From contig NBIV01000048.1 in the NCBI GenBank assembly GCA_003194525.1, positions 124,001-188,000 on the forward strand: a stretch of 64,000 bases of DNA, given 5' to 3'. Source of the stretch: Gracilariopsis chorda. Lineage: Eukaryota > Rhodophyta > Florideophyceae > Gracilariales > Gracilariaceae. This document shows, one piece after another, positions 24,016 to 59,670 of the stretch (positions are counted from its first letter, which is position 1; every line of letters begins with the position of its first letter). Under the pieces are notes generated by a model that was not told where the DNA came from, made no database searches, and worked only from the letters and a program-made list of their open reading frames with translations. The translations under genes were made by a program, and so were the position numbers.

Positions 24016-24197
24016 CTAAGAAGGTAGACATCTGGAGTGGATTGCAGAATGATGGACGCATGTGCGCGTGTGCGCGTGTGCTACAATGCCATGCTGTGAG
24101 GTTTTGTTTTACTTGGGACGACCCCTCAGGGTGCCTGACACTGGTATAAGCACGTGTGTAGACCTGAAAAGGTGTGCACTATTTAAGTTAGTTATTA

Positions 24198-24225
24198 GAG
24201 GATTAACGCCGTAGAAAACCTCGTA
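24198..24225 (+). repeat. Left terminal inverted repeat of Harbinger 1
   Basis: Starts GAGGATTAACGCCGTA. It matches the right end in 24 of 28 bases and is preceded by TATTA. A second inverted pair (ctcgtagcc / gctacgag) follows within 60 bp, as expected for transposase or Myb binding sites. Confidence 0.8.
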
Positions 24226-24385
24226 TCAAATCTCGTAGCCACGACTTACACGAACGCTACGAGATTTTGCGGAACAAAACATTGTGTTTGCACCTTACGC
24301 AAAATAACTTATGGTATAGTTCGTAGGATACGCATCATGCAGTTGTCCACAGACCACCCAGTTGGCAACATGAGCCAAGATTCCA

Positions 24386-25540
24386 TTGCACTTTTACATG
24401 ATGGTCCGCCAAGAAGACTACTCAATTGGGCGTGCCCGTTCTCGTTTTTTACCGCGCAAAACGCTGTTTCAACTAGCTCTTAATTCTGAAGCCGAACCAT
24501 TGTTGATGCTAGCACTATGGCGTCGAGTGCAAGTTGCAAAATATGATCTTCAAAACCTTGAACTTCGACGCTGCCGCATTCGAAATCACAATTTCAACCT
24601 TAACATCTTCTCTGACGAACAGTGTCTACATGACTACATATTTCGCCGTAACGATATTGGTAGAGTTTCTGTGGTTATCGGGTGGGATCTGCGTCATACA
24701 CATCACAATCGCTACTATTGTGACTCAATTACAGCCTGCTGTATTGTCTTGAAACGAATGTCTTCTGCTCATACATGGTATGATATGGAGTTAATATTTG
24801 GCATGAGATTCACACACATCAGTGAAGTATTCTGGGAAGCAGTTGAGCGATTTGTGAACCTAAAAGGTAAACTGGTAACCACTTTGCAGCAGCAGCTTCT
24901 GACATCTCGTGCGGCAATTTACGCAGACGCAATTCAAAGACGCGGAGCCCCTCTAGAAAAATGTGTAGGGTTCATTGACTGCACAAAGGTAAGTGTATGT
25001 CGTCCAGGAGGAGAGGGGAGCAACCAAAGATCTTGTTTTTCTGGGCACACGCGGCAGCATTGTTTGAAGTATCAGACCATTTCTACCCCTGATGGCCTGA
25101 TTTTTCATATGTTTGGCCCTGAAATGGGACGCCGACACGATCTTACACTCCTGAGAAGAAGCGGGATCGAAGCCGTTATGGAAAGGTGTATGGTTGTGAA
25201 TGGATTGCAGTACTATATTTACGGGGATCCTGCGTACGTGCTGCGACCATGGTTACAGACTTCTTTTCAGAGAAGTTGCGCTACTGCCATACAGCTTGAG
25301 TACAACTGTTCAATGAATGCAATTCGAACTGCAGTGGAATGGAACTACAAAGATCTAAAACAAATGTGGGTTCGAAACGGTTTCTCACGTCTGCTTTGCG
25401 TTCGCCGATTTCCGGTCGCTCTTTTGTATATTGCGTCCGCATTGCTGCTGAACTTCAAGACCTGTGTTGAAAAAGGAGGACAAGATAGCCAGTATTTTGA
25501 TTGTGAGGCACCAGAGTTTGAGTTGTACTGCAATATATGA
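24386..25540 (+). CDS. PIF/Harbinger DDE transposase (DDE_Tnp_4 type)
   Basis: An intact 384-residue frame. The catalytic core shows the expected triad: D near residue 198 in GFIDCTKVS, D near 281 in YGDPAY, and E near 318 in AVEWNYKDLKQ. Typical intervening motifs are present (SGHTRQHCLKYQ, the GPEMGRRHD pattern). The N-terminal half is helical and His/Arg-rich. In this superfamily the nuclease cuts and pastes the element, helped by a Myb-like partner; a candidate partner is at 34058-34996. No stop or frameshift is visible, in contrast to the decayed passengers beside it. Confidence 0.9.
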   Translation: MHFYMMVRQEDYSIGRARSRFLPRKTLFQLALNSEAEPLLMLALWRRVQVAKYDLQNLELRRCRIRNHNFNLNIFSDEQCLHDYIFRRNDIGRVSVVIGWDLRHTHHNRYYCDSITACCIVLKRMSSAHTWYDMELIFGMRFTHISEVFWEAVERFVNLKGKLVTTLQQQLLTSRAAIYADAIQRRGAPLEKCVGFIDCTKVSVCRPGGEGSNQRSCFSGHTRQHCLKYQTISTPDGLIFHMFGPEMGRRHDLTLLRRSGIEAVMERCMVVNGLQYYIYGDPAYVLRPWLQTSFQRSCATAIQLEYNCSMNAIRTAVEWNYKDLKQMWVRNGFSRLLCVRRFPVALLYIASALLLNFKTCVEKGGQDSQYFDCEAPEFELYCNI

Positions 25541-25542
25541 CC

Positions 25543-28500
25543 ATATAAGGACACACCGATATATTGACATATCTGCTTGGCTAAACCACGAGCTTGGTGA
25601 TCTTTCTTCATCTGCATCCTATTTCCCAACTCAAAACTTCGCCTCATCAGATGTCTTCATTGCACAATACGCAGCTGTGCTGCGCTTTTACAGGGGCACC
25701 GCATTCAACGCTGAGGTACTGCGCTTTGGCAACCACATCAAGAAAGCCAACTTGTCCTTCAGTGCCGCTGTTTCTATTGCTACAGAACATATGTTGGAGG
25801 TTGCAGCACAATCTTTTCATGGTGCTGAGGCTGCATTACCGAAGACTCCTTCACTTCCCCATCCGCATCATGCCCAAGTCTCACGAATTTCACAAAGTAT
25901 CGGCCAGTCTGCAAGCAGTACAAGGAGCAGCACTCCGTCGAATGATGCCGCGGGAACAGTTCAGTCTACTGATGAATCTGGAGATGAAACCAGCCTCTTA
26001 GAAGGCCGATCTTTGGAAGCTATTCACGACAGTTTGGAAACCTCCGATTCTCTACAGGTTTGCGAAGATGTAGAACAGGAGCTGTCCTCTTCAACAAGTA
26101 GCGAGAATAGCCACGACAGCGACAATACACCAGAGGTACCGTGGGACACGAAGATTACACTTTCGCCGGCCGCAGACTGTGAGTCATGTGTTAGAGACGC
26201 ACCAAACCTCATTGCCAATATTACTGATAGTGAAGAGTATTGAGATCCGCCAACACAAATGCAGATCGTGAAAAAGCGGCACCGGAGGAGCAGACATGAA
26301 TTAGCGAGGTAGAAAACTCACAAGTTGATGTAGCAGGAGATAATGAAGGATCTAGAGCCGGATTAACGTTTGTGTCATGTGTTTCTGACGAATTCAAAGC
26401 TCAATCTAGCCTTGAAGATGACAGTGATGGCTTAGAACCCCCCATTCATGGCTCAGATCATCAGAATCAACAAGAGGTGGTAGCTGAGCTCTTTCCAAAA
26501 CTCCCTGACAAGAGTACTACGGACGACGATGGTGAAACAACTCCAAACAAATATGGAAACTTGTTTGACCTCGACAGTTCTAAGAATCATGCGGAAGAAT
26601 CACAGATCACCGAAACTGCTCTAAGAATAGCTGAGAACGCATACATGAGTTTGATGCACGAATTGCAATCCAGTCACGAGTACGACGTGGAAGGACGTCG
26701 AGGACTAGACTTGCGTTTCAGCGAGCTGGAGAAAGCTGACCTGGTTGCTCTAAAGCGGCTCGAGTTAGAAACAGACAAGCTAGAGACGTCTCATCGGGCA
26801 ATAGAAACACGATACAGAACTCTGAAGATGCCACATTCCAACTCAGTTGAATTCAGGCGTACTAGTGTATTAGGTGACGAAGATAACCTAATCTGCTGTG
26901 AAATATCCTTTCCAGTGTGTGACGCCGAACAATAATACGCCAAACTTGGACATGTATCATGTCTCATGAAGGAGGAAGATGAAGTACTTCGGAGTGACCT
27001 AGAGGATATCGAATCTACTTTGCAGAATGAACATCAGAAGTCGGAAGTACAACTGAAAGCGCTGATGGGCACCGTACTGTCATCGGTATGTTTCTTAGCA
27101 GAATGGAAGTTCGCACGTCATATGAAAGAGCGATTGAAACGTAGACAGGAAGAGCAAGCCCAGAGAGATGAAGAAGTGCGTGACCTAGACCAAGAGTTCA
27201 AGAAGCGAATGTGGACCTTAAACCTTGAACGAACTCGAATTGGAGAAGAGGAGTGGAGGCTTGATTCAGAAATCATGGCATTGGAGGTTTCCTATCAGAA
27301 AGAAAACAATACGGTCTTTGAACTACTTGAGGCAGAAATCGACACCCGACTCTTGACGCTTCAAAATACAGAGGAAAAAGAGCGCATGGAACTTTTGTTG
27401 CGTAGTGAATCACGCGAAGAGTGTGGACAAAGAATAATGGATGTAGAGGATTTAATCAATAGTTATCAGCAAATGAAGGGCGAAGAGGATCATCAAGAAG
27501 ACCAGGCGGAAGAAGAAATATATGAAAGCATTCCTGGAAAGAATGATTACCGGAAGAGTATGCCATCAATGAAGAGCAGGTGGAGTTCTGCTCAGATATG
27601 TATGCTGCGAAGTCAACTATGTCCGCCCAGGACGTAACCGTAACATGTAAGATACGGTATGCCGCGCAAGGAGATGCCGCTTCCGGTAATGTCCAAACAA
27701 GGCGATTTCTGGACAATGCCGGGGAAGAAAACCAAGAATCTTCTGAGTTTCCGTCTAACTGTGGGTCTTCGTCCGTGCAGTATCAAGCAAGGCGTTTTTC
27801 TCCGCAGAGGTTTGCAAGTCCCGTTCTCGCATCCGTCAATGTGCATGTTGATACACCGCCCCCTGTGAAAGACACTACAGGGAAATCTGGATTATCCGTC
27901 AATTCTGGACTCACATCCCTGCAGGCATTACAAAGAAAGGATTATGTTGAGAAGACTAAATCCAGTCCACGAAGTAACGATCAAAAAGTGCGGCTTAACG
28001 TCCCCCCCGAAGATGCCAGTAACTTGGAAAATCTTTCAGTTGAACTGAGTTCTTTCAATATTACTTCCTCGAGGAAGTCTGTTGACGACGTAATGAGTAA
28101 TCCCAGTTACGCAAGCAAGGTTCATGCTCTCATCCGGAGAATATCGACAGCAACAGCATCACCTTCTCGTTGTATGTCCGATTCCTTAGAACACAGAACA
28201 TCCGAACGTCATAGCATGGTTTCTCAGAACATCATTAGAACTATTCTAGTGGTGTTGAGACACCTGCACCGAACTTCTACGCATATTCGCCTTATTGATA
28301 GAGGGATAACTATCATTGGTGACCTCTGTGAAGTACAGGACCGTGTGGTGGATGTTACTTCAGTGGAAGAATGCATCGATGTGATCTTTACCTGTGCGCA
28401 GTTCTATAGAGATCGCGAGGGCATCCTCGACGCTGCGGTTTCTGTCTTGTACTAGTTATCGCAGGATGTCGACGGAGAAACGTTGGTGAGGAAAAACGAG

Positions 28501-28833
28501 AATGCTCTAAAACGACTTGAAAGGATCAAAAATCTACTCAACTCAGCCGCCAACCAGGAAGGCAAGCATCGCATCCGGTTTCAGCACGCCAGATTGATTT
28601 TTAATCAAGTTCGCCTGAGAGAAAAAGGAGTCAGTCGACACTTGCTTCTCAGAGAAGATCTCGCAGCAGCTCAGAAAGAAAGTGCTCCGCTAGAGCTTAG
28701 GATACGGCCTTCACATCGTCTGTTGTGTTCTCTGTTGAGTGAATTGAAATCCAAAAGGAGTGGTTTGAGTAGATTGACAAAGAAAAGTAAATTAAAGCCA
28801 CAGCCTACATCATGCGACGTTAAAAGGTTTTAA
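25543..28833 (+). pseudogene. Broken long coiled-coil gene, C-terminus ASPM-like (uncertain)
   Basis: There are five consecutive plus-strand open pieces (to 26243, 26372-26935, 26966-27637, 27580-28455, 28483-28833). Pieces two and three share a frame separated by one TAA, and pieces four and five share a frame separated by one TAG. Phase shifts occur elsewhere. The middle is a charged coiled coil (Glu/Lys/Arg-rich, about 26970-27500). Near 28230-28560 a helical stretch (RGITIIGDLCEV, SVEECIDVIF, QFYRDREGIL) resembles the armadillo-like C-terminus of ASPM-type spindle proteins. I rate that assignment low. It lies just downstream of the transposase on the same strand. Confidence 0.5.
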
Positions 28834-29137
28834 TCCAGATTGTGAAAGGGTTGCTGGTGACTCTCAACCCCAATATCAATTGAAGTCCATGTTCATTTTA
28901 TTATAGGAGTGCAAACCTCTTTCTACTAGCCGCTTCATTACCTTTACCCCAAGTGGCTACACCAACAGGAATCAAGTTATTCGAAAACAGCAAGGTGCAA
29001 TACAATGGTAACAGATATGAACAGAAGGCGCAACCAGGATCTGCTTCAAATGAAATCATACCTCGAGCCACGTGAAGCCTACACACAGTGGAGGACGACG
29101 GCTGCTTCTCTGAAATTACCGCATCCACCCGTGACGG
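28834..29137. other. Spacer with a perfect 10-bp hairpin
   Basis: No gene seen. CATCCACCCG-TGA-CGGGTGGATG at 29121-29143 forms a perfect stem just at the start codon region of the next gene. Confidence 0.5.
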
Positions 29138-30217
29138 GTGGATGAAGTGAAACCGCCATATGCTTGGTACAGATGGGTTCTTATGTTACGTAGAAAACGC
29201 GTTGTCTGTACTCTGAACGCGTTTCTGGTCTGCATCTTGATAGAGAAAACGATTAGGTTGTTTCGATTTCGCGGCGATGTCCATTTGCCTGATTCACTGT
29301 TTGCTACAATGCCTTCGGGTGAGCTACCACATCCGATGGACATCGTTGCCCAGGTTCAAACTCATCACTTTGTGGCTCCTACAAGTACTTCCTTCTACAA
29401 ACCAGGATACACGAGCATCAGAAATGCCACGTTCCGCAACAGATACCCGTCTGTCAATTTCCAAGGCACCGGGACATTTGATGAAGTGTTTGGTATCACT
29501 AGCGAAAAATGCAGTGAGCAGTTTCGAGAGTTCGAACTTCTAGCTACTCAAAAGGCTGATATCCCGGTCACAAGATGGAACCAGGACGAGCCCCGTCATG
29601 TGTCTTTTCAAAACCCTCCACTTCCAATATCAGAATCAGTTCTGGAAAAGCTTCGTTTCATGAAGAAATCGAATGTATCGCTGATGCAGAAGCACGTAGC
29701 TTACCTTGAAGCTCATAAAAGGCTTTGGGCGCATGTGGCCGCCACGGGAAAGCAGCGGATCTTGGTGATCGACGACACACTGTTTCCCACCACGCGCTTG
29801 CTAAAAAGGCTGCCCATGGTTCTGACAAACGTTGACCAAGAATTCGTTGCAAGACAACAGCCATGGCACTTCATGTTTCTTCGCCGGCAGATGCCCAACC
29901 ACGAATTGCGGCTACAAGCGTCTCGAAAGGAACGCATCTGGACAATGAATCCGAGATACAAGCACTCCGTTGTTCAGGCAAACATATCGCACGTTGCCAG
30001 TGCCTACATTCTATCACTTGATGGTGCAATATTTCTGCATGAACATGTATCAAGATTCCGCGCTCCCCTGGATATTGAAATCGGTCTTGTCCAACGAGAC
30101 TTTCCAGGTCGGTTCGTTGCCCTTAGCGCTTGCAACAATGATGTACAAACACCTTTTTGCCCAGAGATGGTTGAAGACATATCATCTACTTCCGCAAGGA
30201 CCTTGAAATGCACGTGA
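29138..30217 (+). CDS. Type II membrane, GT25-like glycosyltransferase
   Basis: A 359-residue intact frame. A single hydrophobic segment (about residues 24-45, TLNAFLVCILIEKTIRLF) follows a short basic N-terminus, as in Golgi type II enzymes. The C-terminal half resembles family GT25 (LPS- and collagen-type beta-galactosyltransferases). It has a helix with YLEAHKRLWAHVAATGK, a strand ending ILVIDDTLFP in the place of the EDD metal site, and later SAYILSLDGAIFL before a P-L-D. The first acidic residue is Ile-shifted relative to EDD, so activity is uncertain. It lies inside Harbinger 1 as a passenger. The family call is by eye. Confidence 0.55.
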   Translation: MDEVKPPYAWYRWVLMLRRKRVVCTLNAFLVCILIEKTIRLFRFRGDVHLPDSLFATMPSGELPHPMDIVAQVQTHHFVAPTSTSFYKPGYTSIRNATFRNRYPSVNFQGTGTFDEVFGITSEKCSEQFREFELLATQKADIPVTRWNQDEPRHVSFQNPPLPISESVLEKLRFMKKSNVSLMQKHVAYLEAHKRLWAHVAATGKQRILVIDDTLFPTTRLLKRLPMVLTNVDQEFVARQQPWHFMFLRRQMPNHELRLQASRKERIWTMNPRYKHSVVQANISHVASAYILSLDGAIFLHEHVSRFRAPLDIEIGLVQRDFPGRFVALSACNNDVQTPFCPEMVEDISSTSARTLKCT

Positions 30218-31682
30218 CGACGATTGCATGACCGTCGTAATGCACAAGAGTTTGATAGTTATCTCAAAGGGTAGGCTTGATACACTCGGGAACGAAGACC
30301 ATATATGGTAAGACGCATCTAACTACACGTGAGAATGATTGAACGAGTATCCACTTGGCAAGTCGCAAGAATGCTCTGAACTGGTTAGACGAGCTCGAGA
30401 TCTGAAGGCTAGTGTCAGTTGCAGCCAACTTTGATATTAACGTGCCGCTCCCAGCCAGTTGGAACATAGGAAACATCTTCAGGATTCGATGCATGACTCC
30501 GAATCCGGCTCTTCAACCTTCCAAACTTAGTTCTCTAGATGCGGGCATGTGATCACTCCTCTGCTAACGCCCAAAAAAAAACAGGCTGCATCTCACAAAT
30601 GAAAGGCGGTTATGAATAAGTTGAAGCACACCGTTCCACTGGCTAACCCTTTCCTCACTGAGGTCGTCAATAGCTCCCACCCAGTCTGTTGTTCCACTAA
30701 CGTTATGGTCTGGCTTGTTAGTCTTTCAACCTGTTCGTACTGGTTCATGCTGCACTGAGTTCATACTAGGGCGGCATGACGGATGTGGAACTTTCTATCA
30801 ACCGTCGTACTCTTGCTGCAATTTACTCACGGTGGGGAACTGTGATTGTGCATCGGCTTTCATATATCATAAGTAGTAGGCCCAACAGACGTACTCAAAC
30901 CCTGGAAATATGGTTGGCAGATGACAGTGACATAACGAGCGCAAGTACTCCTAAATCCATCTCAACAACTCGCACGTCTGGTTTCCAATGGGATTGATTT
31001 GGTCTTCGCAAACCCTGCTGTCGGTGCCACATCACCACTGCCACGTATTAATACTCAACTAAAGCCACAAGTTTCGAAGAGGTAAAAAACCTGCAGTCAA
31101 ACAGTGGTCTTGAAAACACGTACACATGTGCATATATAGCGAAGACGGCAAACGCGAAAAAACGAGCCATCCCACCTACAAAACAGGACGGGGGAAACGA
31201 AAGCTTCCCCTCGTATGATCATGGTTTACCATATCAGGGATTGCGGAATCCTCCAAGTGATGTGATCCTCTGTTGTCTTTCTTCATGGAGTAAACGCCTT
31301 CTCTCACGCTTTATGATGGGTTTGTAGAGAGGAAAACAATGACGCCTAAATGATCAGACAACATCCTTGTAAGCAGCTTGTAATATCCTGGAACCTCGTG
31401 GTACACTGACAAATTGATAAACGCAGATCTGTCAGCCCTGAAGATGAGACTGTCTTGGAAGTTTTTGTTTCTGTGGATTTCACAAGTAGCCTTAAAACGC
31501 TGTGGAAGATAACAACCGGTTTGCAGGACTTCAAGAAAACCTGGTTCTGGGATTCCCTTCATATGCGGGGACAGTTGTCATCGAACAATTTCTGTCGTCG
31601 GATCAGTGGAAGTGTATACTTTGGCTACCGTCTGCGATACATGACGTCCAATTCTCCTATTCGTTCCATCAAATTTTATGCC
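30218..31682. other. Passenger spacer containing first copy of a direct repeat
   Basis: No gene. About 30500-31160 is an imperfect direct repeat of 33590-33960, with an extra ~230 bp near 30700-30950 in this copy. Short frames (30776-30997, 31455-31727) show no family signal. Confidence 0.5.
30500..31160 (+). repeat. Imperfect direct repeat, copy 1 (inside Harbinger 1)
   Basis: Shares segments such as tcaaccttccaaac, ctctagatg.gggcatgt, catctcacaaat and cttgaaaacacgta with 33590-33960, in the same order. The two copies bracket the EME1-like and STT3 pieces. Confidence 0.75.
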
Positions 31683-32321
31683 TCAAAGGAGGTCATCTTG
31701 ATTCACACTGTTCTGGAGAGCGTTTAGTAGACATTGATGCGTGGGATACTTCTCATATATGGCTTTGCCCTTCGCATTAGACACACCGGGTATTAGGGAG
31801 AGCATCATAAGGTACATATGACTTGTATTCTTCGTAGAACGCTTAAGTGATGTGCCTTCCTCGTGCTCGGATTCGCTATCATTTTCTTCGGTGTTTGTAG
31901 CCCCGTTTCTGTTCTCTCGTGATATAATAACGGCTGCTGCGGCTCTTGCAGCTTTCTTTCTCTTGTACGGCAACACGGACTCCAAGAAGGCCTCGTTTTG
32001 GTAGTGTGGGAGCTTCGCTACAGCCCGAGAAATGTCACAGATATAGTGAGAGAGCTCTTCTCGATTGTGGATATCATGCGTACGAATTCCGTAATCCATG
32101 AAAAGAAAGGCATAGCTGTCCTGAACTGCTTCCTTGCTCATTATAGTAAGCGAATGTCCACCCTTTTTAAGAGCGTCTCGTGCTATCTGTTTGCAATATC
32201 TATCCATATCGCTGATCGCTATCACGATCTTGTTACCCGTTGAACACGCCTTGAAATCACGGCAGAAATGATCGAGCGTGTTGCTCTTCATGTGAGCAAC
32301 ATATTCTGCGGCTGTAAACAA
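31683..32321 (-). pseudogene. EME1/MMS4-like ERCC4-family fragment
   Basis: A 212-residue open piece. EAVQDSYAFLFMDYGIRTHDI, EELSHYICDISRAVAKLPHY and the C-terminal helix-hairpin-helix-like MLSLIPGVSNAKGKAIYEKYP line up with the C-terminal half of EME1, the partner of MUS81 in cutting branched recombination intermediates. The N-terminal part reads EYVAHMKSNTLDHF and KIVIAISDMDRYCK as in EME1. A real EME1 is over 500 residues, so at least the N-terminal half is missing. The reading begins exactly where the STT3 piece ends (about 32300-32320), so the two are joined end to end. The frame itself is open. Confidence 0.7.
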
Positions 32322-33360
32322 TAACAGAGCACAGCGAATGCACCATACGTAATCAAGAACATATTCGCATCAGACAGCTTCTTGAAACAAAAGTACAGTC
32401 CCATAGGCATCAAATACACAGTCAAGTGGAGGTCGAAAAAGTACGATCCCCATGCTGTGTGCTCATGCTCTGACACGGGTCCAATAATCGGAATGTTCCT
32501 AGATACATACGTCGGATCAAGAAATGTTCGAATCCTACAAGTCATACGACCGCTGCTGTCGAACGCAAATGATACAAGAACCAGAGATACAAGAACGGAC
32601 AACGTGAAGAGTGCACGCGAGCGTACAAACGATTTGAACACCCTCGGTTCGGTAAAACTGCGTACCCAGTTCGTAACACAATACAAGTTAATGAGACCAA
32701 ACGTTCCAAAAGCCCGAGATGTTCAAAAGTTTGAACCGCGTTGAATCCAACAAATCGGATTTGCAGGAAGAGAAACGTTCCAAGCAAGTAGAAAGTGTTA
32801 TTCGCCACATATAGCCCTGCGAGTAACTCCCTGTAAAGAGCAGCACAAGGACGTAAACCGGGATCAACTTAATCAGAAAGAAGTATCTACCCCAACTGGC
32901 CACCATGAACAAGTATGATAGAGTAGCCATTCCTTACCAGAACAAAGAGCCTGTACTCACAGCTTTGGTCCATAGGTAGAAGCAGAAAATCATGGCATTG
33001 ATCGCAACGCCTTCGTTGCAATACGAGTCAGTGACCGCACAAGATATATACCCAGGCACAATAGATATGATAGCGGCAGCAACTATGCCTGATGCAGTGT
33101 CATATTCTTCGTTTGTAAGAGCATAGGAAGATAATGCAGTCAGTCCTGAGAATACCGGGGCTCTTAGCACGCAAACGTCCTGAATGTTGATTTGAAAACC
33201 GAGAAAATGGAGAGTATTGTACACTAAGCAGCTGTATACATTATCCCGGGGTAAAACGTGCCTCTCACGATTCTACCAAGCGGATACCATGATCGTGAAT
33301 CAAAGCAGGTCCCAAGCTTGTAGGAACCTTCTTCGACCAGAACTCTGACAAATTGAAAAG
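32310..33360 (-). pseudogene. STT3 oligosaccharyltransferase fragment
   Basis: Strong similarity to STT3, the catalytic subunit of oligosaccharyltransferase in the ER membrane. In order from the right: LVEEGSYKLGTCFDSRSWYPLGRIV, YNTLHFLGFQINIQDVCVLRAPVFSG, IVPGYISCAVTDSYCNEG, LFMVASWGRYFFLIKLIPVYVLVLL, DPTYVSRNIPIIGPVSEHEHTAWGSYFFDLH, and LSDANMFLITYG. Several phase changes and an in-frame TAA (after TGSLFW) break it, and SYDNEG is read SYCNEG. The N-terminus with the DXD motif and the C-terminus with WWDYG are absent. It is a captured internal piece, not a working gene. Confidence 0.9.
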
Positions 33361-34057
33361 GGGATTATTCGCAAGTTAGAGTGAATCGAGCGAAGGGGAG
33401 AAGAGGGTGCTGGACATTAACGCTCTGGACATCAGCGGTAGTGGTTCATGGTGTAGGGGTTAAGCTTACCTTGTGCTTCGGAAATTGAACAACGGTTCAA
33501 ACTCGTGGGTTATGCTTCATATCGCAGGACTGAGAAAAACCGGATGGAGAACGATACAATGTAGTTCAAACTGCGAGCTATTCCAAAGGCTGATCCGGCT
33601 TTTCAACCTTCCAAACGTCGGTCTCTAGATGTGGGCATGTACTCACTCCTCTGCAAACACGCAAAAATCCAGTTAGCATCTCACAAATCAGAAACTGTTG
33701 TGAATATGTTGAAGCACACAGTTCCACTGCCTAATCCTCGCAAAGCCATCTGCACAACTCGCGCATGTTATGAGTTATGATGGGATTGCTGTAGTGTTCG
33801 CAAACCCTGCTATCGGTGCCACATCTCCACTGCCACGTAAAAGTACTCACCTAAAGACAAAAGTTTCGAACAAGGAAAAGCACTCAGTCATATCGTCATC
33901 TTGAAAACACGTAAACAGGCGCATGTATAGCGATCGCACCAAGCATGAACAAACAAGCCGTTCTAATTGCCAAATCGCACGGACGAAATAAGAGCAACCT
34001 GTGAAATACCACCTGGGTTAAACTAACCAATTAGTGTACCATCATATCCAGTTTACC
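33361..34057. other. Passenger spacer with direct-repeat copy 2
   Basis: No gene. A weak tRNA-like stretch lies near 33440-33510 (A-box-like TGGTGTAGGGG, B-box-like GGTTCAAACTC) but cannot fold into a good acceptor stem. 33590-33960 is the second copy of the direct repeat. Confidence 0.5.
33590..33960 (+). repeat. Imperfect direct repeat, copy 2 (inside Harbinger 1)
   Basis: See copy 1 at 30500-31160. This copy is shorter and lacks the ~230-bp insert. It sits just outside the STT3 piece. Confidence 0.75.
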
Positions 34058-34996
34058 TCAATGAAGCTTCTTTGTCAAAGCTTCAATCAAACCAATCATC
34101 TGTTTCCTCTCTTCAAGTGCTAGAGCACGCTTTTCCTTTTCCATTTCAAATCGTTTCCTCTCAAGCTCCAATCTACTGTCCGCTTCTCTCCTCGAAGCCT
34201 CAAAATGTTGCCGATCTTTCTCGTTTCTTCCTCTTTCCATCTTCAAGCGTTCGTGTTCCATGTCGAACCGCTTCTGTTCTAATATTTGACGTTCTTTCGA
34301 TTGCTCGAGAAGAAAAACTGTCATATCGTCAGCAGAATTAGAAGCCTCCAAACGTCGAGCCCGTTTCCTGCCTGGCGATTTCGAGATATCAGTACCTCCA
34401 TCACTTTGCACTGCAATTGTCTTGTGTTTCGTAGCCTTCTTGCGTATTTCTTCATCGGCATCAATTAGTTTTTTCTCATGTGCACTAAGCTCTTCCTTTT
34501 CTACCTTCACCGCTTCTGCTTTTTCGTCCATTTCAAGAATGAGATCATCTAGCAGCACTTCCTTTTCACCATACTCCTCCAAAATTCCAGTTGCGGACAC
34601 ATTACGCCTATTGTCCGCTCTTCGTATAGCCACGAGACTTTTAAATCGATCGATTAGCGTCTTCCGTGATGGACGGTTCATATAAGAAAAAACTGCCCTA
34701 GGAACAACTGCAAGAAAATTATTTAACACTTTATCAAATATCACGTCAGTTTTGCCCCATTCTGGAACATGCGCGTCAGATCCTCGCACCGCCTGAAGAA
34801 GACAAATGTCATATGCTTGAGTAAACCGAAATCGCTTCAGTTGTTGCGTAGTGGACGATAAGGCAGACTCATTTGGTAGTTCGGGAGAATGGGTTTGGGT
34901 GTTTCCGGGCAATCCTGTTGTAGTCTGCATAGCCTTGGCGTCTTTCCACGACTTTTCGGAATGCCCGGACGTGCTCATGGTCAGAGAGACGTTCAA
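34058..34996 (-). CDS. Myb/SANT-like DNA-binding protein of Harbinger 1
   Basis: A 312-residue intact frame. Residues about 50-125 form a Myb/SANT-like helical domain (RFRFTQAYDICLLQAV, W residue in EWGKTDVIFDKVLN, then KTLIDRFKSLVA). A basic nuclear-signal-like stretch follows (PGRKRARR, about 210). The C-terminal 90 residues are a long Glu/Arg/Lys coiled coil for dimerisation. In PIF/Harbinger elements such a protein binds the transposon ends and imports the transposase. It starts 172 bp inside the right end and points toward the transposase gene, which fits the role. Confidence 0.8.
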   Translation of the reverse strand: MNVSLTMSTSGHSEKSWKDAKAMQTTTGLPGNTQTHSPELPNESALSSTTQQLKRFRFTQAYDICLLQAVRGSDAHVPEWGKTDVIFDKVLNNFLAVVPRAVFSYMNRPSRKTLIDRFKSLVAIRRADNRRNVSATGILEEYGEKEVLLDDLILEMDEKAEAVKVEKEELSAHEKKLIDADEEIRKKATKHKTIAVQSDGGTDISKSPGRKRARRLEASNSADDMTVFLLEQSKERQILEQKRFDMEHERLKMERGRNEKDRQHFEASRREADSRLELERKRFEMEKEKRALALEERKQMIGLIEALTKKLH

Positions 34997-35140
34997 ACGT
35001 AGCGCGTCGTCTGCGAAAGAGGTATACCATCAGCTACTAGTATGGATGGTGGTTTGTACGAGAATTTGTATGAAATTCTCGTACGTTTCGTAGCCACAAA
35101 TGACAAGTGTGCATCCTGTCCCTGGTGTATACCATAATTG

Positions 35141-35168
35141 TACGAGAATTTGTACGGCGTAAATCCTC
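35141..35168 (-). repeat. Right terminal inverted repeat of Harbinger 1
   Basis: The reverse complement starts GAGGATTTACGCCGTA. It is followed on the outer side by TATTA at 35169-35173, the same 5-mer as on the left. Confidence 0.8.
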
Positions 35169-35173
35169 TATTA

Positions 35174-38890: not shown

Positions 38891-40903
38891 TCAGCTCAGC
38901 GTAGTAGCCGACTCCTTCGACAGGTCCTTAATGTTATTCACCTGGATCTGTTTCGAAGACAGGGACCACAAATGCTCTCCACCCAGCACAAGGTTCCGTT
39001 CAATGGACGGCGAATACCTGCTCGATGATACACTTTCATGCGTAATACGACCTCGTTCCTTAATGGTGCTGTCCGAAACCTCTAACACCACCGACCCAAC
39101 GAACCGATCCGAAGCGAAGTACGCCGACACAGGAAGCACTGCCACAGATTCCGGCCCCCAGTACAAGAACGCTCGGTGATCCCACTCGGCAGTCGAGCGA
39201 CTTCCTGGCAACGTCCATGACGACAGCTCGGTGGGCTTTGTCTTATCCGACACGTCGAACAACGTTACCTTCGAGCCCGTCACTCTACCCTCCGCGGTAG
39301 CGTCCTGTCCGACGCCGAGGATGCGACCAGCTGAGATTGGGTGCAGGTAGGAACTGAAGCCTGGGATCTTCAACTCGCCCGTCACTCTCAGCCACCATGG
39401 TCGTGAGAGATCAATAATGTATAATGGATCTATCTGTCGGAACGTCACCACGTACGCTGTGTCTTTCACGTAGCGCACGGCGAAGATGCGCTCTCCCAAT
39501 CCCAAGTTACCCACTTCTCCGATTTTTTGCAACTTCTTGCTGTACCTGTTGGTCCTGAACGATGTCACCTTGCTCGAACTTTCGTCTCGAGCGCCCCACC
39601 AAGGTGCGCCATCGGTGGTGGCAATGAAGAAGTATCGGTTGTACTCGTGCATGGAAAACTGGTTCAGCACGCTTCCCGATACTTCACCACTCGCAACGTA
39701 GTTTGCGCCGTAGTCGTGGAGCGAGAACTTATGGATGGACGTCTTAAAGTCCCTACCTGATCTTATGCTGTTTTCGAAACCGAAGAAGTCCCATCGGTAT
39801 TCCGTCGTGGTGACGTACAAGGAGGAGGCTGTGGCGTATACCTCATCGCCTTCAGAGACAATTGAAACGCTTCCTGTTGGCTTCAAATTTCCTGAGACAG
39901 GCAGAGTGACCACGGTGAGCAAGTCAAATCCAGGGAAAATTCCCGGTATGTACACGTTGGAGCACGAAGAAATCAAGGAAGTAGTCTCACCGCTCTGACC
40001 CTCGAACTTGAGTGAGTAACCAGGATACCAATCGTTTTGAGTAGACCTTCGGATAACTTCTTGATTGTGAGCTTTCGCTTCAGCGTAAGGAACCACACAA
40101 GATGGGTACTTGAATCTCAGGTGGGGTTTGTACAGCATGACAATTCGGGCGACGCCGTCAACTTCCCTCGAGTTCAAATAGCGGCCTTCCATGCGAAGGG
40201 TAGCCACTAACTTGGGAATGCCATTGTTCACCTTGATCTGATACACACTAGTCGTGCTCTGATCAAAGAAGATACCGCCAACACGTTTGGAGAGTGGTAT
40301 GGGATATATAGAGCCATAAGTCTGTGCAATGACCAGCAGATGGTCGCGCTCAATAAGCATCTCCCTTGCACGGGATGGCAGTGTCAACTCACCAGTCACA
40401 CGCCCATTCTTCCCTCCATCCTTCACGTCGAGCACAAAGAACTTTCTTCCACGAACGACAAACACTCGTTTGCCATCTGTTTTAATGATATCCGGCTCAT
40501 CGACTCCTTCCACTTGCACGTTAGTTTCCGAGAAATCCACACCAGCCACTGGTTCGCTGGCCGACGGCGCAGCCTTCGGCACAGCATTGCTTTCAAACGC
40601 GGTGGGAGCTGCATTGGCGCTGTCTGTAGCAAACGCGGTGTTCGCCAAGAAGACTGGGGGCATCGGGTCGAAGCCACGGCCTCGATACGGCCCGCAGTAA
40701 AAGGACGGACGGAACGAGCCGTAATTTCGCTGATCACTTAGCCCGTACGCACCGACACGCGACATTGCGTTGTTCTTGAAGTAGCGCACGAGGTCGGGGC
40801 ACTTGTTGTAGCGGCTGAGTGAGATGGCGTGCACATTGTGGAGTAGCAAAGTAAAGAGGACAGCCGCCAAGACGGCGGTGTGACGCGGAGAGACGGACGT
40901 CAT
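38891..40903 (-). CDS. Secreted beta-propeller-domain protein
   Basis: A 670-residue intact frame with a clear signal peptide (residues 1-26, ending NVHA-I). From about residue 125 it shows the hallmark of the Beta_propel family of secreted proteins distantly related to WD40 repeats: ETNVQVEGVDEPDIIKTDG followed by RVFVV and FFVLDV strands. Repeated blade-like segments run to the end. The family is best known from bacteria and archaea; its biochemical role is unknown. The frame is uninterrupted. A TACCCTTGGTA motif lies about 210 bp upstream of the start. It is one of the best-preserved host genes in the window. Confidence 0.88.
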   Translation of the reverse strand: MTSVSPRHTAVLAAVLFTLLLHNVHAISLSRYNKCPDLVRYFKNNAMSRVGAYGLSDQRNYGSFRPSFYCGPYRGRGFDPMPPVFLANTAFATDSANAAPTAFESNAVPKAAPSASEPVAGVDFSETNVQVEGVDEPDIIKTDGKRVFVVRGRKFFVLDVKDGGKNGRVTGELTLPSRAREMLIERDHLLVIAQTYGSIYPIPLSKRVGGIFFDQSTTSVYQIKVNNGIPKLVATLRMEGRYLNSREVDGVARIVMLYKPHLRFKYPSCVVPYAEAKAHNQEVIRRSTQNDWYPGYSLKFEGQSGETTSLISSCSNVYIPGIFPGFDLLTVVTLPVSGNLKPTGSVSIVSEGDEVYATASSLYVTTTEYRWDFFGFENSIRSGRDFKTSIHKFSLHDYGANYVASGEVSGSVLNQFSMHEYNRYFFIATTDGAPWWGARDESSSKVTSFRTNRYSKKLQKIGEVGNLGLGERIFAVRYVKDTAYVVTFRQIDPLYIIDLSRPWWLRVTGELKIPGFSSYLHPISAGRILGVGQDATAEGRVTGSKVTLFDVSDKTKPTELSSWTLPGSRSTAEWDHRAFLYWGPESVAVLPVSAYFASDRFVGSVVLEVSDSTIKERGRITHESVSSSRYSPSIERNLVLGGEHLWSLSSKQIQVNNIKDLSKESATTLS

Positions 40904-46366: not shown

Positions 46367-46466
46367 AGTGTCGGCTTCGAAATTGTGTTTCACGGAAAAG
46401 CTGCTGTTGGACTGTGTCATTCTTCGGATCGAGGTTGGGTCTGTGTCCTCTTTCGTGATTGTCGTG

Positions 46467-47531
46467 ATGAACCCAACAGAAAACACACCGAGTGTAAATG
46501 ATGGAATCGCACAGGAACGCGAGCTAAGACGAAAGGAGAAGGTCGGTAAGAGTTTAGTGTGGAATGAGAAGGAAAATTCCGCATTGTCTCATGCAGCGCA
46601 GAAGGCTTTGCTAGATCCTACTACCGGATCGAGCATGAACAACGCAGAAAAAGCAAGACGAATCAGAGCCGCGTTCATCAAGGATCCATTACGTCCGAAA
46701 GAAGCCTGCACTACCGACGATAAGGGCGACCTGGATCATCGCAGATGGGATGGACGATCTGCGCGAGCAGTGCTGGGACAATGGGAGATAATAAGGAGGG
46801 AGTGCACGAAGTATCATGCTTGCGTAAAGCGAATTGGGCGTGCGCAACTTACAGGAAACCCCAGCGAAGAGGATCAACTACGTTGCGCGTCGCTTCTCTA
46901 CAGTGACGGAAGCAGAGCTATGTCGCACTTGTATGATTGCATCCGTAACAAGGACTACCACGTTAAGAAACCGTTTAGGTTCATGAGTGCGTACAAGGTT
47001 CTCTCAGGTTCAGAAACTATGCTGGAGGCTTTTGTGGTGACGGAAGAGGGAGCATCCAAAGTATTACGACCGGAAGGGGTCAAGACGGCTAAGAAGCGCA
47101 AAGCAGAAGAGATTGCCAAAGCATTGAATAGTAAAGAAGAAGATGTAGGTCAAAGTGTGAAGCGAATTCAGCAGATGATTGAAGAGAATATAAAGTCGAG
47201 GAAGGCGACCACGCAGCTCAAGCTACAGTACGAAAGAGAAAGAATGGAGTGGGACATGGAGAAGACATTACTTGGACCTGGTTCAGATGCAACCTCAGAA
47301 GAACGTAGAACTATTTCCGGCTTACTAAAGCGCCGCTTAATGAACCGGCTTCTGGCACCAGGAGAGAAGAACATTGTCCCACAACAACGGAGGGGGGAAG
47401 TAGACGACGAAGCTCGGGCTGTTGCAAACTGTGCTAGTACATTACTTCAAATATCGGCAGTATCTGTTAACAGTGAGCATGGCTGTGGTGCACAGAATGA
47501 AGATAGTGACATCGGTCATGGTGCGGGATGA
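46467..47531 (+). CDS. Myb/trihelix-like protein of Harbinger 2
   Basis: The frame opens at 46368. I prefer the Met at 46467 (MNPTENTPSV), giving 354 residues. Residues about 30-190 have the helical, Trp-containing pattern of the Myb/SANT-like proteins that accompany Harbinger transposases (SLVWNEKENSALSHAAQKALLD, KDPLRPK, DGRSARAVLGQWEIIRREC). Basic KTAKKRKAEEIAK and a C-terminal charged helix follow. The expected role is binding the element ends and helping the transposase. Convergent with the transposase gene. Confidence 0.7.
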   Translation: MNPTENTPSVNDGIAQERELRRKEKVGKSLVWNEKENSALSHAAQKALLDPTTGSSMNNAEKARRIRAAFIKDPLRPKEACTTDDKGDLDHRRWDGRSARAVLGQWEIIRRECTKYHACVKRIGRAQLTGNPSEEDQLRCASLLYSDGSRAMSHLYDCIRNKDYHVKKPFRFMSAYKVLSGSETMLEAFVVTEEGASKVLRPEGVKTAKKRKAEEIAKALNSKEEDVGQSVKRIQQMIEENIKSRKATTQLKLQYERERMEWDMEKTLLGPGSDATSEERRTISGLLKRRLMNRLLAPGEKNIVPQQRRGEVDDEARAVANCASTLLQISAVSVNSEHGCGAQNEDSDIGHGAG

Positions 47532-47571: not shown

Positions 47572-48867
47572 TCAAATGTCTCCATGCGCGTTCCATATGT
47601 TCTGAATCTGCGCATTGAGGAGACGGTTATGATCTGCAACACTGTCAAGGTCATCAACTGTTTCGCGCCACAAGTCGGCTTGCCTGTAGGTGCAGTGGGA
47701 AGTTTCATAGTTCGACAATGTAGGTGGCAAGGACTGTAGTTCTGCGTCAGGAATTCGAAACTTTGCGGTCCCTTCATAACCCCTTTCTTTCACAATCATA
47801 TTGTGTAAAATGGCGCAGCACATTACGACGTCATTCATTTCTTGAAGGTGATGCAACCTGCAAGGGCGGGAAAGAATCTCAAATTGAGCGTCAAGAACGC
47901 CATACAAGCGCTCAACAGCCTTGCGTGCACTCGAATGTGACGCGGTGTACAACCTTGATTTCGCATTTGTGGGGTTGGGGTGTGGCTTGGCAAAAATGCG
48001 AAAGCTTGGATAGATTCCATCCGCTAAGAAATAGAACCAATCAATCACCATTCCACCTACAACATAATTGGGCTTCACTGTTGGCCATTGTCTTGTCTTG
48101 ATATCATTAAACAGGGGGCTTTGATCAAATTTCGTCCTATCGTTGCGAGCACCAGGAACGCCATACAGAATGTGCCATATCCATAGTTTGTCGTCCGTTA
48201 CAGTTTCCATACGCACACACGGTCTCCCCTCTTTTCCAATAAACTGACCCTGCAATCCCACAGGACACCTTGCCCACTCCCAAGAAGAACAATCAACACA
48301 ACCGATACATCCAGGAAATCCCAGTTTTGCATACTGCTTTTCAATATTGAGTAGTTCTGCGTGTGTTGGTCGACGGATATATTCCTCAAAGTGCTGCACT
48401 ATAGCCTTGGAGAAGTGCTTTAGAATTTTTAATAATGTAGTTTCAGACAACCGAAAGTAGTCTACCAAAGTATCTGCGGTAGCTCCAGAGCTGAGTTGTC
48501 GCAAAGCTGCGCATAATTTTTGATCAGTTGAAGCGCCATTAACGTGACAGCAATCTGACAGTTCATTGAAAAAAGACTCGTTTTGAAGTAGCCGCGTTCT
48601 TATAGATTCGTATATTGTCCTCGTGACACTGAATCTTCTTTCAAATTCTGCCGTTAAGAAAACAGAAGGAGCTAATGAAACACGACAAAAGTAGTCTTGA
48701 TCAAGACGACGTTTGCCGCTTTCTCGCCCAATATCTCGATTTGGCTGCTTACCAGGTTTGGATCCACCTTGTTTGGCTTTTTGTTTACGACTTGTCACTA
48801 GCTGTGTCACAAGAAGCAAAAGAGAGTCAATCACATCATCGTTTGATGAGTCCGATGAGGTAGACAT
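47572..48867 (-). CDS. HARBI1-like transposase (Plant_tran type)
   Basis: An intact 431-residue frame. Catalytic D in GCVDCSSWEW, second D in FLADGIYPSF, and the helix RKAVERLYGVLDAQFEIL with the catalytic E. Flanking motifs QFIGKEGRPCVRMETVTDDKLWIWH and GVPGARNDRTKFDQSP are typical of the plant-transposon-protein branch of PIF/Harbinger. The N-terminus is Ser/Asp-rich followed by Lys-rich. No internal damage is seen, so together with the neighbouring Myb-like gene this element may be recently active. Confidence 0.9.
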   Translation of the reverse strand: MSTSSDSSNDDVIDSLLLLVTQLVTSRKQKAKQGGSKPGKQPNRDIGRESGKRRLDQDYFCRVSLAPSVFLTAEFERRFSVTRTIYESIRTRLLQNESFFNELSDCCHVNGASTDQKLCAALRQLSSGATADTLVDYFRLSETTLLKILKHFSKAIVQHFEEYIRRPTHAELLNIEKQYAKLGFPGCIGCVDCSSWEWARCPVGLQGQFIGKEGRPCVRMETVTDDKLWIWHILYGVPGARNDRTKFDQSPLFNDIKTRQWPTVKPNYVVGGMVIDWFYFLADGIYPSFRIFAKPHPNPTNAKSRLYTASHSSARKAVERLYGVLDAQFEILSRPCRLHHLQEMNDVVMCCAILHNMIVKERGYEGTAKFRIPDAELQSLPPTLSNYETSHCTYRQADLWRETVDDLDSVADHNRLLNAQIQNIWNAHGDI

Positions 48868-52697: not shown

Positions 52698-55600
52698 ATG
52701 GCGTATGGCGACTCCAGTGGGGCTGAGGACTCTTATCCCTTCTATTGCATGTTGCATAGCACGAAATGCCCTGAGAGGGGAGGTGTTTTTGATGGCCGTG
52801 CTTCGCAAAGAGCAGTTCACGAACCCAAACCCGAGCTTTGGAAGCAACACTCCTCGGTTTCACAGGAAGGAGGTAGGCCGTTTTCCAATCTACCGAAGAG
52901 GCCGCAGCAAGGAACTATCTCAGGGGAAGGCATCGGGAAAGGTGGCGTAAACGATGTAAAATGCTCGGATGGACTTCTGGATAACGCGTTTAACGTCGAG
53001 AGTGGCGTAAGAGGCGATTTTGGCATTAGCTCTTTTGAAGCTGACCCCCCTGCTGCTTCTCCGAACTCCTCAACACAAACAGTGGACGCGAATTGCGAGC
53101 GTGCACGCCACAGCGCTTTGGGCGCCGAATTAGGCTCAAAAATGAGTGAGGAGAGTGAAACTCTCAACGCAAACGTTTCATATGCGCAGCAGGTTTCAGA
53201 TGAGCAATCCGTTGAAGAAGAGGAGGCGCCGCTCATTGATCGATTCCTAGATGACGAAGAGGAGGTTCCTTCATGCTTCTTCGAAGACTCTGATGGTGGC
53301 ATCCTGAATGAAGAAGAATCGGAATCGAAGGAGAAGGATGGCCTTGGAGAGAAGGACGAAAAGTACTGGACAGAAGATGGTGATGAAGAACTGGGCACGG
53401 AATCCGTACAGAACACGATACCGAATGAGAGAATTGAGGAGTGTTTTAAAGCAGCAGTCTTAGCCTATCTGGAAACCCTTCCTCTCAATGCTCCTGGTGT
53501 CACGGTTCTGAAGGAAGTTCAATTTATCGCGGACTGCTTCGGGTACAGCTTATTCGTAAGGACTTCTATATACTTTGGAGAACGAAAGCGATCTCCGGAT
53601 AAGGCAAAGTCTCCCAAGAGTCGTGGTGCTGAACGTGGGAATAGAAGGGTGCTGAAGAAGGGAATCTTGAAGTGCGATCAATATAATAACAAGATGAGGC
53701 GATGCCTCTTCTCGATAACGATTAAGACGGAGGATTCTGGGCAGGAGGAAGATGGTGGAATGATCTACGTGGCTAATTTAAATGGTTGTAAACATGGACA
53801 TGGTCCCTCTTGGAGCTTTGGTATTAGACATCTCAAGCCGCAAATGCGTTCTGAAGCGATACATATGACGAACGATTTGCATATGAGCTTTACAGATACC
53901 ATACGATACCTGGAAGACAAGTACAATCAAAAGATAAATCCGGTATCGGCGAGGAAGAAGTTGAGGTATGCTTCCTCCACAAGCAATCTCCGCGATTTGG
54001 AATGTGTAAGGTTGTGTGATCTGCTCTTTTCGTTGAGCCAGGAGGATGCAGGAAGTAAGGGATTCTTCGCTGCGGATGATTCGGGTAGGATGAAGTACGC
54101 TTGTTGGTCGTTTCGAGAGTGGATGGAAGACTACCAGAAGTTCGGCATTGTTCCGGGGGTATCTATTGATTTTAAAGCCATAGCCAATAGATACGGTTTC
54201 CCTCTGGTCACCATTAATGTAAGAGACAATGATGGTCATGTGTTGACATTTTTCATGGGGTTCATGTGCTCCGAAACAGAAGAGGACTTCGTACGAATTC
54301 TGTCCTACTTCAAGTCTATAGTCGCCGTCTCACCGGCGATGGTAGTGATGGACCAGAACACTGCGTGTATAAATGCAGCTGAGAAGGTGTTCAATTCGTC
54401 CTATATAAGCCTCGACGAATGGCATCTGAACGAGAATCAGAAGAAGAATGTGGCCAATTGCTGTAGAAAGATTGATAAGATGGAGTGGATGCACGATATG
54501 AAGAAAGACCTGTTCAACCTCAGAAATTCATATACGTCGGAAACGTTTTTCGAAAGGAGAAGAATGCTAGAATCCAAGTACTTTGATGCTTTTGACGATC
54601 GTCTCCCTGTGTGGTATAAGTACTTGTACCACTATAAGCCGCATATACTGGTGTCTTGCTTCCGAAATGCGGCTATACCTACCCGTTACATGTTCCAAGG
54701 AACTGGCTACACCGAATCTTCTAACTCTGCATACAAGAAGATCATTATATCGAAGAAGATTCCCTTGTGCAAGGTTCCTTTGGAGGTTCGGCGTATATCC
54801 CAAGAACGGGCTGATACCCGGAACTTGGAGCTTGTAAGAACCTTATCTTCTCAAAGTGGGAGATATTGGAAGACAAGAGAGCTTGAGCAATTTCTACCTG
54901 TAGAAGTTGTAGACAGCCTGGTGGCTGAGTACACGAACTACGCCTTGGCGCACTTCGTAGATTTGAGCTTTAAGCCCTCGAAGAATACATTCTTTCCAGC
55001 ACAGAGGTTGTGGATTATTCACAGGAAGCGTGGCCGGAAGCAATCAGAAACCTGGAAAGTAGTTCAACCCCAGCAATGGGACCTGTAGCTCGCTTTGAGT
55101 TGAAATGGGGAAGCCATCTGAGTCAGAGCCGGAATGCGTCGGTGGATGAAGAGCGCTCATCACAGGAGACTGTTGTGCAATTCTCAAAAAGGTATACGGG
55201 GTCGGGGGATGACGTTAAGGCAGAGTTTATTGGTATCTGTTCCTGTGGGCAGCCCTGGTCCATTGGTTTTGCTTGTCGTCACATGGTTCGATGTGCTGTG
55301 GTTTATCAGGAAGAACGTCTGCGGTTCCCTGAACTACGAAACATACTAGGATACTTCATACCTCTTGAAGCGCTTTTCTCTACATACTGGAGAAAAGATA
55401 CTTCTGCTATGACAGTCCCATACTTGGCGAAACTCAGGTCAGAGACCCGATACTTCAACAACGAGGAGATGGATTACCGACTACGCCGTTTTGACGATTC
55501 GACGGAGAAAGAGTTTATCCCCATTGACTCAGATATACTTAGAACCAGTAGCGAAGACTCGGAAGTAGATGGGTACAATACGTACATGGAAGGAAAAAAC

Positions 55601-58796: not shown

Positions 58797-59670
58797 ATGT
58801 CGTCGTATGGCGTTGTGCACACTATCCAAGCCCCGACTCTTGCAGGAGCATCTCAACCGGAGCTGATCAAGTTTGAAGTGAACTACACCGCCTACACCGA
58901 ATGCGTCGAAGATGTTAACTCCGTAAAACCTCCCAGCCAACGCATCAATCTAGCCTCCGTCCGCCAATGCATGACACCTCGACTCTTGCACAGCCTGTGC
59001 ATCTTAGGACGTATCGAAGAATCTAGTTCTGCCGAGGATGCAACCGACGAGTCAATGAAAGCGTGGTTCAATTGTCGGCTAGCTTTGACCGTCTGTGATC
59101 TCAGTGACCATGTCTAGGAAGCGCTGTTGACGGTTAGGTTCAAGCCAATGTCTCGCGATCCTGCAGGTGCCGCAGAAAATCTTGTTCTGGAAACGATCGC
59201 CGCACTAGATGAGTACAACGCGTCAAGCATCATTACTGACAGTGATCTATGCAAAGAATTTATCGCAAAATTGGTCAAGAAACTGGAACCGCCAGAGCTC
59301 AAGCAAATTGTTGCAGATCAGGTGCGGCTGTGAAAGAAGGAACAAAAGGGAGATTTGAAGTTTTTCACCAATACTATCTCTACCCGGGCAAGCCAGGTGC
59401 ACCTCGTACAGTGTGCAACCCAGAAGCTAAAGAGAAAGCATCCATCATCGCACCATCAAGGCAACCTTTCAAAGAACACTGAAGGTTCTAGCACCGAGAA
59501 GCAGCGTAACAGCCTACACGACAGCCTACGGAAGACCACCGAGCGTCCGGGTGCAGTCGGCCACGCTGGAGAACAATTCAGGAACGGCACGTGGGACAAA
59601 CAGTGCTTGAACAGTGAGGAATGCTCTGGTATACATCCGATCAGCAAATGTCCGGTCACGTCAAAGTAAA
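58797..59670 (+). pseudogene. Gag-like region of element C
   Basis: The region between the left LTR and protease. It is helical, followed by a basic stretch and a single CLNSEECSGIHPISKC zinc-knuckle-like segment. Assigned as Gag by position and by its match to fossil B at 35761-36760. Broken; the domain layout is described, not reconstructed. Confidence 0.6.

Follow-up and report, generated by a model that had tools for sequence, protein, structure and literature searches.

A likely family of PIF/Harbinger-type transposons with near-constant ends and exchangeable host-gene cargo in the red alga Gracilariopsis chorda

How pieces of unrelated host genes come to lie between the two genes of a transposon is the question raised by a 64,000-nucleotide stretch of Gracilariopsis chorda DNA (contig NBIV01000048.1, positions 124,001 to 188,000; the whole stretch is called the window below). 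Near its middle, a DDE transposase open reading frame (ORF) and a putative partner ORF lie 8.5 kb apart, enclosed by terminal inverted repeats (TIRs). An earlier note on this DNA had proposed one mobile unit of about 11 kb carrying host gene fragments. The genome searched for comparison comprised 91 Mb in 1081 contigs, which are designated here by C-numbers. Very probably, the element belongs to a PIF/Harbinger-type family with near-constant ends and an exchangeable middle made of host gene copies.

The bounds of the element were set by comparing 14 family members. The element proper reads A-GAGG...CCTC-T and occupies window positions 24197-35169 (10,973 bp). At 24198/35168, the end alignment confirmed the 24 matches among 28 terminal bases given in the earlier note (chance about 2e-11 at a fixed place). 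A perfect 3-bp repeat, taken as the target-site duplication (TSD), flanks 13 of the 14 members (ATT, AAT, AGT, ACT, ATA or TTT), and a 5-bp duplication was rejected on this ground; the TATTA that had been reported directly on both sides is present and is therefore ATT with chance neighbours. An empty site was sought by joining the flanks with one ATT, and at least 38 other copies of the invaded repeat cross the insertion point uninterrupted, at 80-91% identity (40 of 207 candidates were scored, and the remaining two of the 40 rows are the two flanks in the window itself). This repeat may be a decayed retrotransposon: of four flanking frames examined, two gave sub-threshold RVT_1 and Integrase_H2C2 matches.

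With two mismatches allowed, the TIR core was found 124 times forward and 192 times reverse, against 48 and 49 times for the reversed pattern. Exact matches numbered 32, with 24 in 12 inward-facing pairs (window copy included; spacing 3,072-13,699 bp) and 8 single. Thirteen further elements were compared, namely the other 11 exact pairs together with C49 and C317, whose ends carry mismatches. Over its whole length the window copy is 96.2% identical to C156 and 95.4% identical to C49. Together with the 38 uninterrupted sites, these two copies show that an 11 kb unit was inserted in one copy of a repeat, as the proposal of a single mobile unit with further copies had foreseen.

Assignment to the superfamily draws on three features. 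The transposase carries DDE_Tnp_4, as do most of its 106 protein relatives by label (nearest named relative, BWQ96_02612 of G. chorda), so that the transposase gene described earlier as open just inside one end is borne out. The duplication is 3 bp long in all but one of the 14 elements, the triplet being mostly A-N-T here as against the TTA/TAA common in plant PIF/Harbinger members. Helitrons have neither inverted repeats nor a TSD, and such an identity was ruled out by the presence of both in the window element. The TIR of 28 bp lies inside the usual Harbinger range of about 25-50 bp (PMC2572040). On these sequence characters, window 24197-35169 is classified as one PIF/Harbinger-type transposon.

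The 14 elements fall into four cargo types. Type A comprises the window copy, C156, and C49; type B, C1, C3, and C47; type C, C34, C95, C267, C268, and partly C317; and type D, a short form, C5, C13, and C22:445673. Copies of types B and C share with the window copy 1,592-1,897 bases on the left (94-97%) and 1,164-1,290 on the right (88-97%), with no long common stretch between these end modules; the left module is split in C47 by an insert and in C317 by a stretch of its own. Type D shares 126 bases on the left, 325 on the right, and, at 79-80%, a 701-base stretch of the GT25-like region; in the three D copies only end modules and this one cargo stretch match, with no transposase among the matches listed. 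The cargo includes a 1140-codon VPS13-like frame (Pfam score below cut-off) in type B, a CH domain, a DUF2921 E3-ligase-like piece, and a PPR protein in type C, and a phosphoglycerate mutase piece in type D. There is thus a family of 7.6-13.7 kb elements with the same ends, copied repeatedly, in which unrelated gene pieces are shuffled. The host gene fragments of the earlier note are indeed carried, but not as a fixed load, being swapped between relatives. The features of the window copy are as follows.

24194..24196 (unstranded): left TSD, ATT, from flank comparison
24197..24225 (+): left TIR, beginning A-GAGGATTAACGCCGTA...; its core was used for the genome-wide end search
24198..25789 (+): left module, about 94-97% to cargo type B and C elements; extends to 26094 with type B
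24386..25540 (+): DDE transposase ORF, 384 amino acids, open; DDE_Tnp_4 at residues 197-328 (5.4e-18)
26100..29137 (+): coiled-coil gene, broken piece; label from sequence, no Pfam match
29138..30217 (+): GT25-like ORF, 359 amino acids, open here; 95% amino acid identity to C87:75695-76771
30503..31212 (unstranded): inner-block spacer, 78.5% to the right spacer (33593-34010) over alignable parts
31683..32321 (-): EME1-like (ERCC4) piece; its frame runs on past the junction in C87
32329..32330 (unstranded): junction of C87-like and STT3-like DNA, no shared bases seen
32330..33561 (-): STT3 fragment captured from the host, 92.8% identical to the gene at C137; putative intron kept
33563..34010 (unstranded): older GT25-like remnant (33563-33594) and right spacer (from 33593); spacer 89.5% to C99
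33879..35168 (-): right module, common to type C elements; the part shared with type B begins at 34005
34058..34996 (-): partner ORF, 312 amino acids, open, in the position of the second (Myb-like) Harbinger gene
35141..35169 (-): right TIR, inverted match to the left end
35170..35172 (unstranded): right TSD, ATT, from flank comparison

The labels given earlier to the cargo differ in how well they stand. That of STT3 is firm. The EME1-like piece scores just over the cut-off for ERCC4 (25.3 bits; cut-off 24), but EME1-MUS81_C is only sub-threshold; no homologue was scored among 208 candidates, and comparison with the PDB gave only noise. The GT25-like label draws on precomputed Glyco_transf_25 assignments of 2 of 14 homologues, a third being sub-threshold, whereas the ORF itself has no Pfam match, even sub-threshold; it is 58% identical to proteins of Gracilaria domingensis and Agarophyton chilense. 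The long coiled-coil gene is present as a coil frame, but as a broken piece of a longer frame elsewhere in the genome (counterpart C87:74154-75026, in a reported open frame of 2135 codons). A protein search of the genome with this piece returned 21 rows, 19 of them in C87 or in places already matched at the DNA level and the remaining two only at E values of 0.38 and 0.53.

Donor loci with 91-97% identity were located in the same genome. The host STT3 gene lies at C137, and C126, C86, and C99 hold one stretch of it (1,356-1,358 bp, 91-93% to C137), the captured piece being without both gene ends. About 123 bases bordered by GT...AG and containing three stops, probably an intron, are kept in the copies, and their retention in the transposons suggests that DNA was copied. 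For cargo C, the donors are C79:210693-211813 (97%) and C1:25854-28927 (96%), with 281-301 bases read at each border; the cargo switches abruptly from C79 to C1, and C317 runs on along the C79 gene past the switch. For cargo A, C87:72672-78887 matches window 26100-32329 at 96%. The initial, CH-bearing part of cargo C has its match at C87:69534-71001, also at 96%. Frames of 2135 (coiled-coil), 438 (GT25-like), and 438 codons (EME1-like) are reported as open at C87 in the open-frame column of the genome search; in all 8 transposase rows compared this column agreed with the stop-to-stop frame, yet the 855-codon STT3 frame reported in the family search holds three stops, in the presumed intron. 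In 241 bases read at C87, the EME1-like frame continues stop-free where the window copy jumps to STT3. Because of the frames reported open, and because neither a transposase nor a partner (among the matches listed) nor an end with 0-1 mismatches lies nearby, C87 is probably an ordinary host locus. For cargo D, a search led to no clear host donor; the further places it returned include some adjacent to family ends or partner pieces. The mapping of intact counterparts that had been suggested thus placed STT3 at C137 and the EME1-like and GT25-like frames, as reported open, at C87, and the STT3 and EME1-like donor loci elsewhere in the genome agree with a cargo of unrelated host gene pieces.

The order of capture can be read from relatives of the window copy. 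In C126, the STT3 capture (about 1,358 bp) replaces 225 bp of the GT25-like ORF (window 29304-29528). C99, C86, C126, and, by coordinates, C182, about 88-91% identical to the window copy, carry STT3 within the GT25-like ORF and are without window 29304-32329 at the STT3 site. The window copy and its closest relatives contain this block and have lost 119 bases of the STT3 piece. Compared with the right spacer of the window copy, that of C99 is closer (374/418, 89.5%) than the window copy's inner spacer (288/367, 78.5%), so the inner block came from another source; its best match is C87. Spacer counts against C156 and C49, in which the two spacer copies are mixed, were left out. Bases shared at the junctions, as raw counts, range from none (EME1/STT3) to a few elsewhere. 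The relatives show serial capture and replacement, in which later pieces replace earlier ones and the ends stay.

Internal template switching during break repair, followed by cut-and-paste spread, appears the most likely mechanism. A break or transposition gap would arise inside the element and be repaired by copying host DNA or another element, with template switches at little or no shared sequence during repair; where a captured fragment has kept its similarity to the donor locus, it might sometimes direct the copying. Cut-and-paste movement would then spread the altered element, with transposase and partner protein supplied by the element itself or by a relative. More tentatively, a captured fragment may serve as a foothold from which later breaks are repaired from the donor locus, so that cargo would grow stepwise, guided by homology, and elements with constant ends would exchange cargo. 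If this holds, C87 would have been copied a second time, into an element already containing the STT3 piece, to give the window copy.

The ratio of nonsynonymous to synonymous substitution rates (dN/dS) of the window transposase was 0.41-1.55 against 13 close copies, lowest (0.41-0.52) against C1, C3, C34, and C267; that of the partner ORF was 0.59-1.28 in 10 comparisons. Cargo gave 0.36-1.99 (27 values, and one more undefined), and six comparisons of captured STT3 with the host gene gave 0.55-0.84. Comparisons with C22, C17, and C58 were left out as saturated and poorly aligned. Stops or frameshift gaps occur in 11 of the 13 transposases and 6 of the 10 partner ORFs compared. These values would fit decaying cargo and an intermittently functional transposase, the changes being few and proving neither; the cargo, without evident function, probably decays for the most part. 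The earlier proposal that the transposition genes are kept open while the cargo decays thus holds for the window copy, but most compared copies are broken and dN/dS lends it little support.

Several observations weigh against the reading of a mobile, cargo-exchanging PIF/Harbinger family. The dN/dS ranges of transposition genes and cargo overlap. One of the 14 copies, C3, has no perfect TSD (TCT/ACT). The partner ORF is open at the opposite end, as had been described, but Pfam gives no support to the name Myb-like, a search finding no Myb domain; its structure model (mean predicted local distance difference test score, pLDDT, 61.8) has a long C-terminal helix and N-terminal helices of low confidence. 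The host status of C87 is drawn from 241 bases read, reported frames, and protein lists covering 107 of 339 and 127 of 159 candidates. For cargo B, of which 3,359 bases (about half) were searched, the best outside match was at C260, with 76% identity over 1.06 kb. The case for template switching comes from junctions whose shared bases are raw counts, and that for movement is built on sequence comparison throughout.

Four other explanations were weighed. That two separate Harbinger remnants merely flank ordinary host DNA with EME1-like, STT3, and GT25-like sequences would suit the 8.5 kb between transposase and partner, a distance of about 1 kb or less in 25 of 66 paired loci; the end-to-end match of two other copies of about 11 kb at different places and the 38 uninterrupted sites refute it, and the STT3 gene lies on another contig, leaving it practically no probability. 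A mosaic produced by assembly chimeras or contamination is hardly more credible: the assembly does consist of 1081 contigs and some copies stop at contig ends (C103, C304), but the same mosaics recur across contigs with different flanks and TSDs and with about 0.4-10% divergence. Cargo has been proposed as selected accessory DNA in the fungal Starships, and here, too, it might be functional and help the element or the host. Individual copies do keep certain cargo frames open (the VPS13-like 1140 codons in C1, the GT25-like ORF in the window, PPR in C268), and low dN/dS values occur, such as 0.41-0.44 for the GT25-like frame compared with the three D copies and 0.36 for the coil compared with C49. 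Many of the same frames, however, have stops or frameshift gaps in sister copies, 18 of the 27 cargo values lie between 0.5 and 1.3, and the STT3 piece is truncated at both sides, so that selected cargo is judged quite unlikely.

The alternative with most in its favour, still improbable, concerns the route of capture. Faulty excision of neighbouring elements would create hybrid elements that enclose the DNA between them, as described for capture by Pack-CACTA elements (PMC13317346), and no internal template switching would be needed. The long unbroken host pieces (3.06 kb in the match to C1, 6.2 kb in that to C87) and the difference of whole cargo blocks between types are in keeping with such events. 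Against them, both end modules are retained where the STT3, C1-derived, and inner-block pieces have taken the place of internal segments, and these pieces match loci on other contigs. Internal template switching is preferred.

Host fragments in autonomous PIF elements are already known from Pifvine-3 and Turmoil-1. The grapevine PIF element Pifvine-3 holds ORF1, a transposase, and transduplicated host DNA (PMC2528002); it resembles the window family in combining PIF genes with host exons and introns common to several copies. There, up to 3.5 kb of additional DNA forms a 5' region, whereas the window family, in a red alga host, has about 5-8.6 kb between the two genes, several donors, and swapped cargo. 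Turmoil-1 of Caenorhabditis elegans is likewise a Harbinger element with a transposase and two captured gene fragments with an intron kept, but it measures 5,024 bp, has its fragments within 760-bp inverted repeats, and is known from one complete copy (PMC2572040). Pack-TYPE transposons, which include Harbinger-PIF members in rice and maize, also hold captured coding DNA between their ends, as does the window copy, and the 3.07 kb D copies fit; they are defined as non-autonomous, whereas the window copy has an open transposase and partner (PMC8903248). Animal Pack-TIRs are similar in their internal filler and short shared sequence at switches (median 2 bp there) but are mostly short degenerate elements with a median consensus of 374 bp (PMC8277862). 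The word Harbinger is absent from the accessible text of that paper and of a review of giant eukaryotic transposons (PMC6431247). In yeast work on PIF/Pong, small size was critical, which may explain the little extra sequence in most elements (PMC10288884). No paper on elements of this sort in red algae appeared, by title or start of abstract, among the rows listed in a search outside which most subscription journals lay. New here are the size, several donors per element, swapped cargo, and a readable order of capture. Since donors and differently aged forms coexist in a 91 Mb genome, capture order and junctions can be read stepwise, and models of gap repair and hybrid excision become directly testable. 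Open host-gene pieces in such elements are also a warning for gene annotators.

Beyond the 14 elements, protein searches (107 of 339 transposase and 127 of 159 partner candidates scored) gave, after merging, at least 101 transposase and at least 102 partner loci. A convergent partner lies within 20 kb of 66 of the 101 transposases; three pairs are tandem and two divergent. The gap is below 1.1 kb in 25 of the 66 pairs and 1.5-19.7 kb in 41, and the longest may include later insertions. A tree was built from 24 of 30 fetched transposase loci (six fragments were dropped) and 7 of the 106 protein relatives; 16 widely spaced transposases and the compact ones, only six in number, fall on opposite sides of one branch (100/99).

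C22:370686-379440 and C17:116828-126875 belong to a sister lineage at about 66% amino acid identity, in which transposase and partner are also 7-8 kb apart and the cargo opens with a 217-codon frame. At C355 (L055 461-1254), a left-end fragment of the family (87% over 792 bases) adjoins a compact Harbinger element. A 4.7 kb insert interrupts the cargo B element at C47:76600-91600, and 225 bases of element sequence are repeated at the insert's edge. One frame of the insert matches reverse transcriptase (4.2e-14), another gives a sub-threshold phage-integrase match, and the insert can be read as DIRS-like.

Other features were noted elsewhere in the window. A second Harbinger-type transposase (47572-48867, minus strand; Plant_tran 4.9e-52, DDE_Tnp_4) is adjoined by a 387-codon frame (46368-47531, plus strand). 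An open frame of 670 codons (38891-40903, minus strand) has a strong Beta_propel match (3.5e-124); because this family is mainly prokaryotic, horizontal transfer is possible. A 796-codon frame with a MULE transposase domain occupies 52698-55088 (plus strand), and retrotransposon frames lie at 564-2915 (minus strand; reverse transcriptase, RNase H, and protease) and 59621-63346 (plus strand; reverse transcriptase, integrase, and a weak chromodomain).

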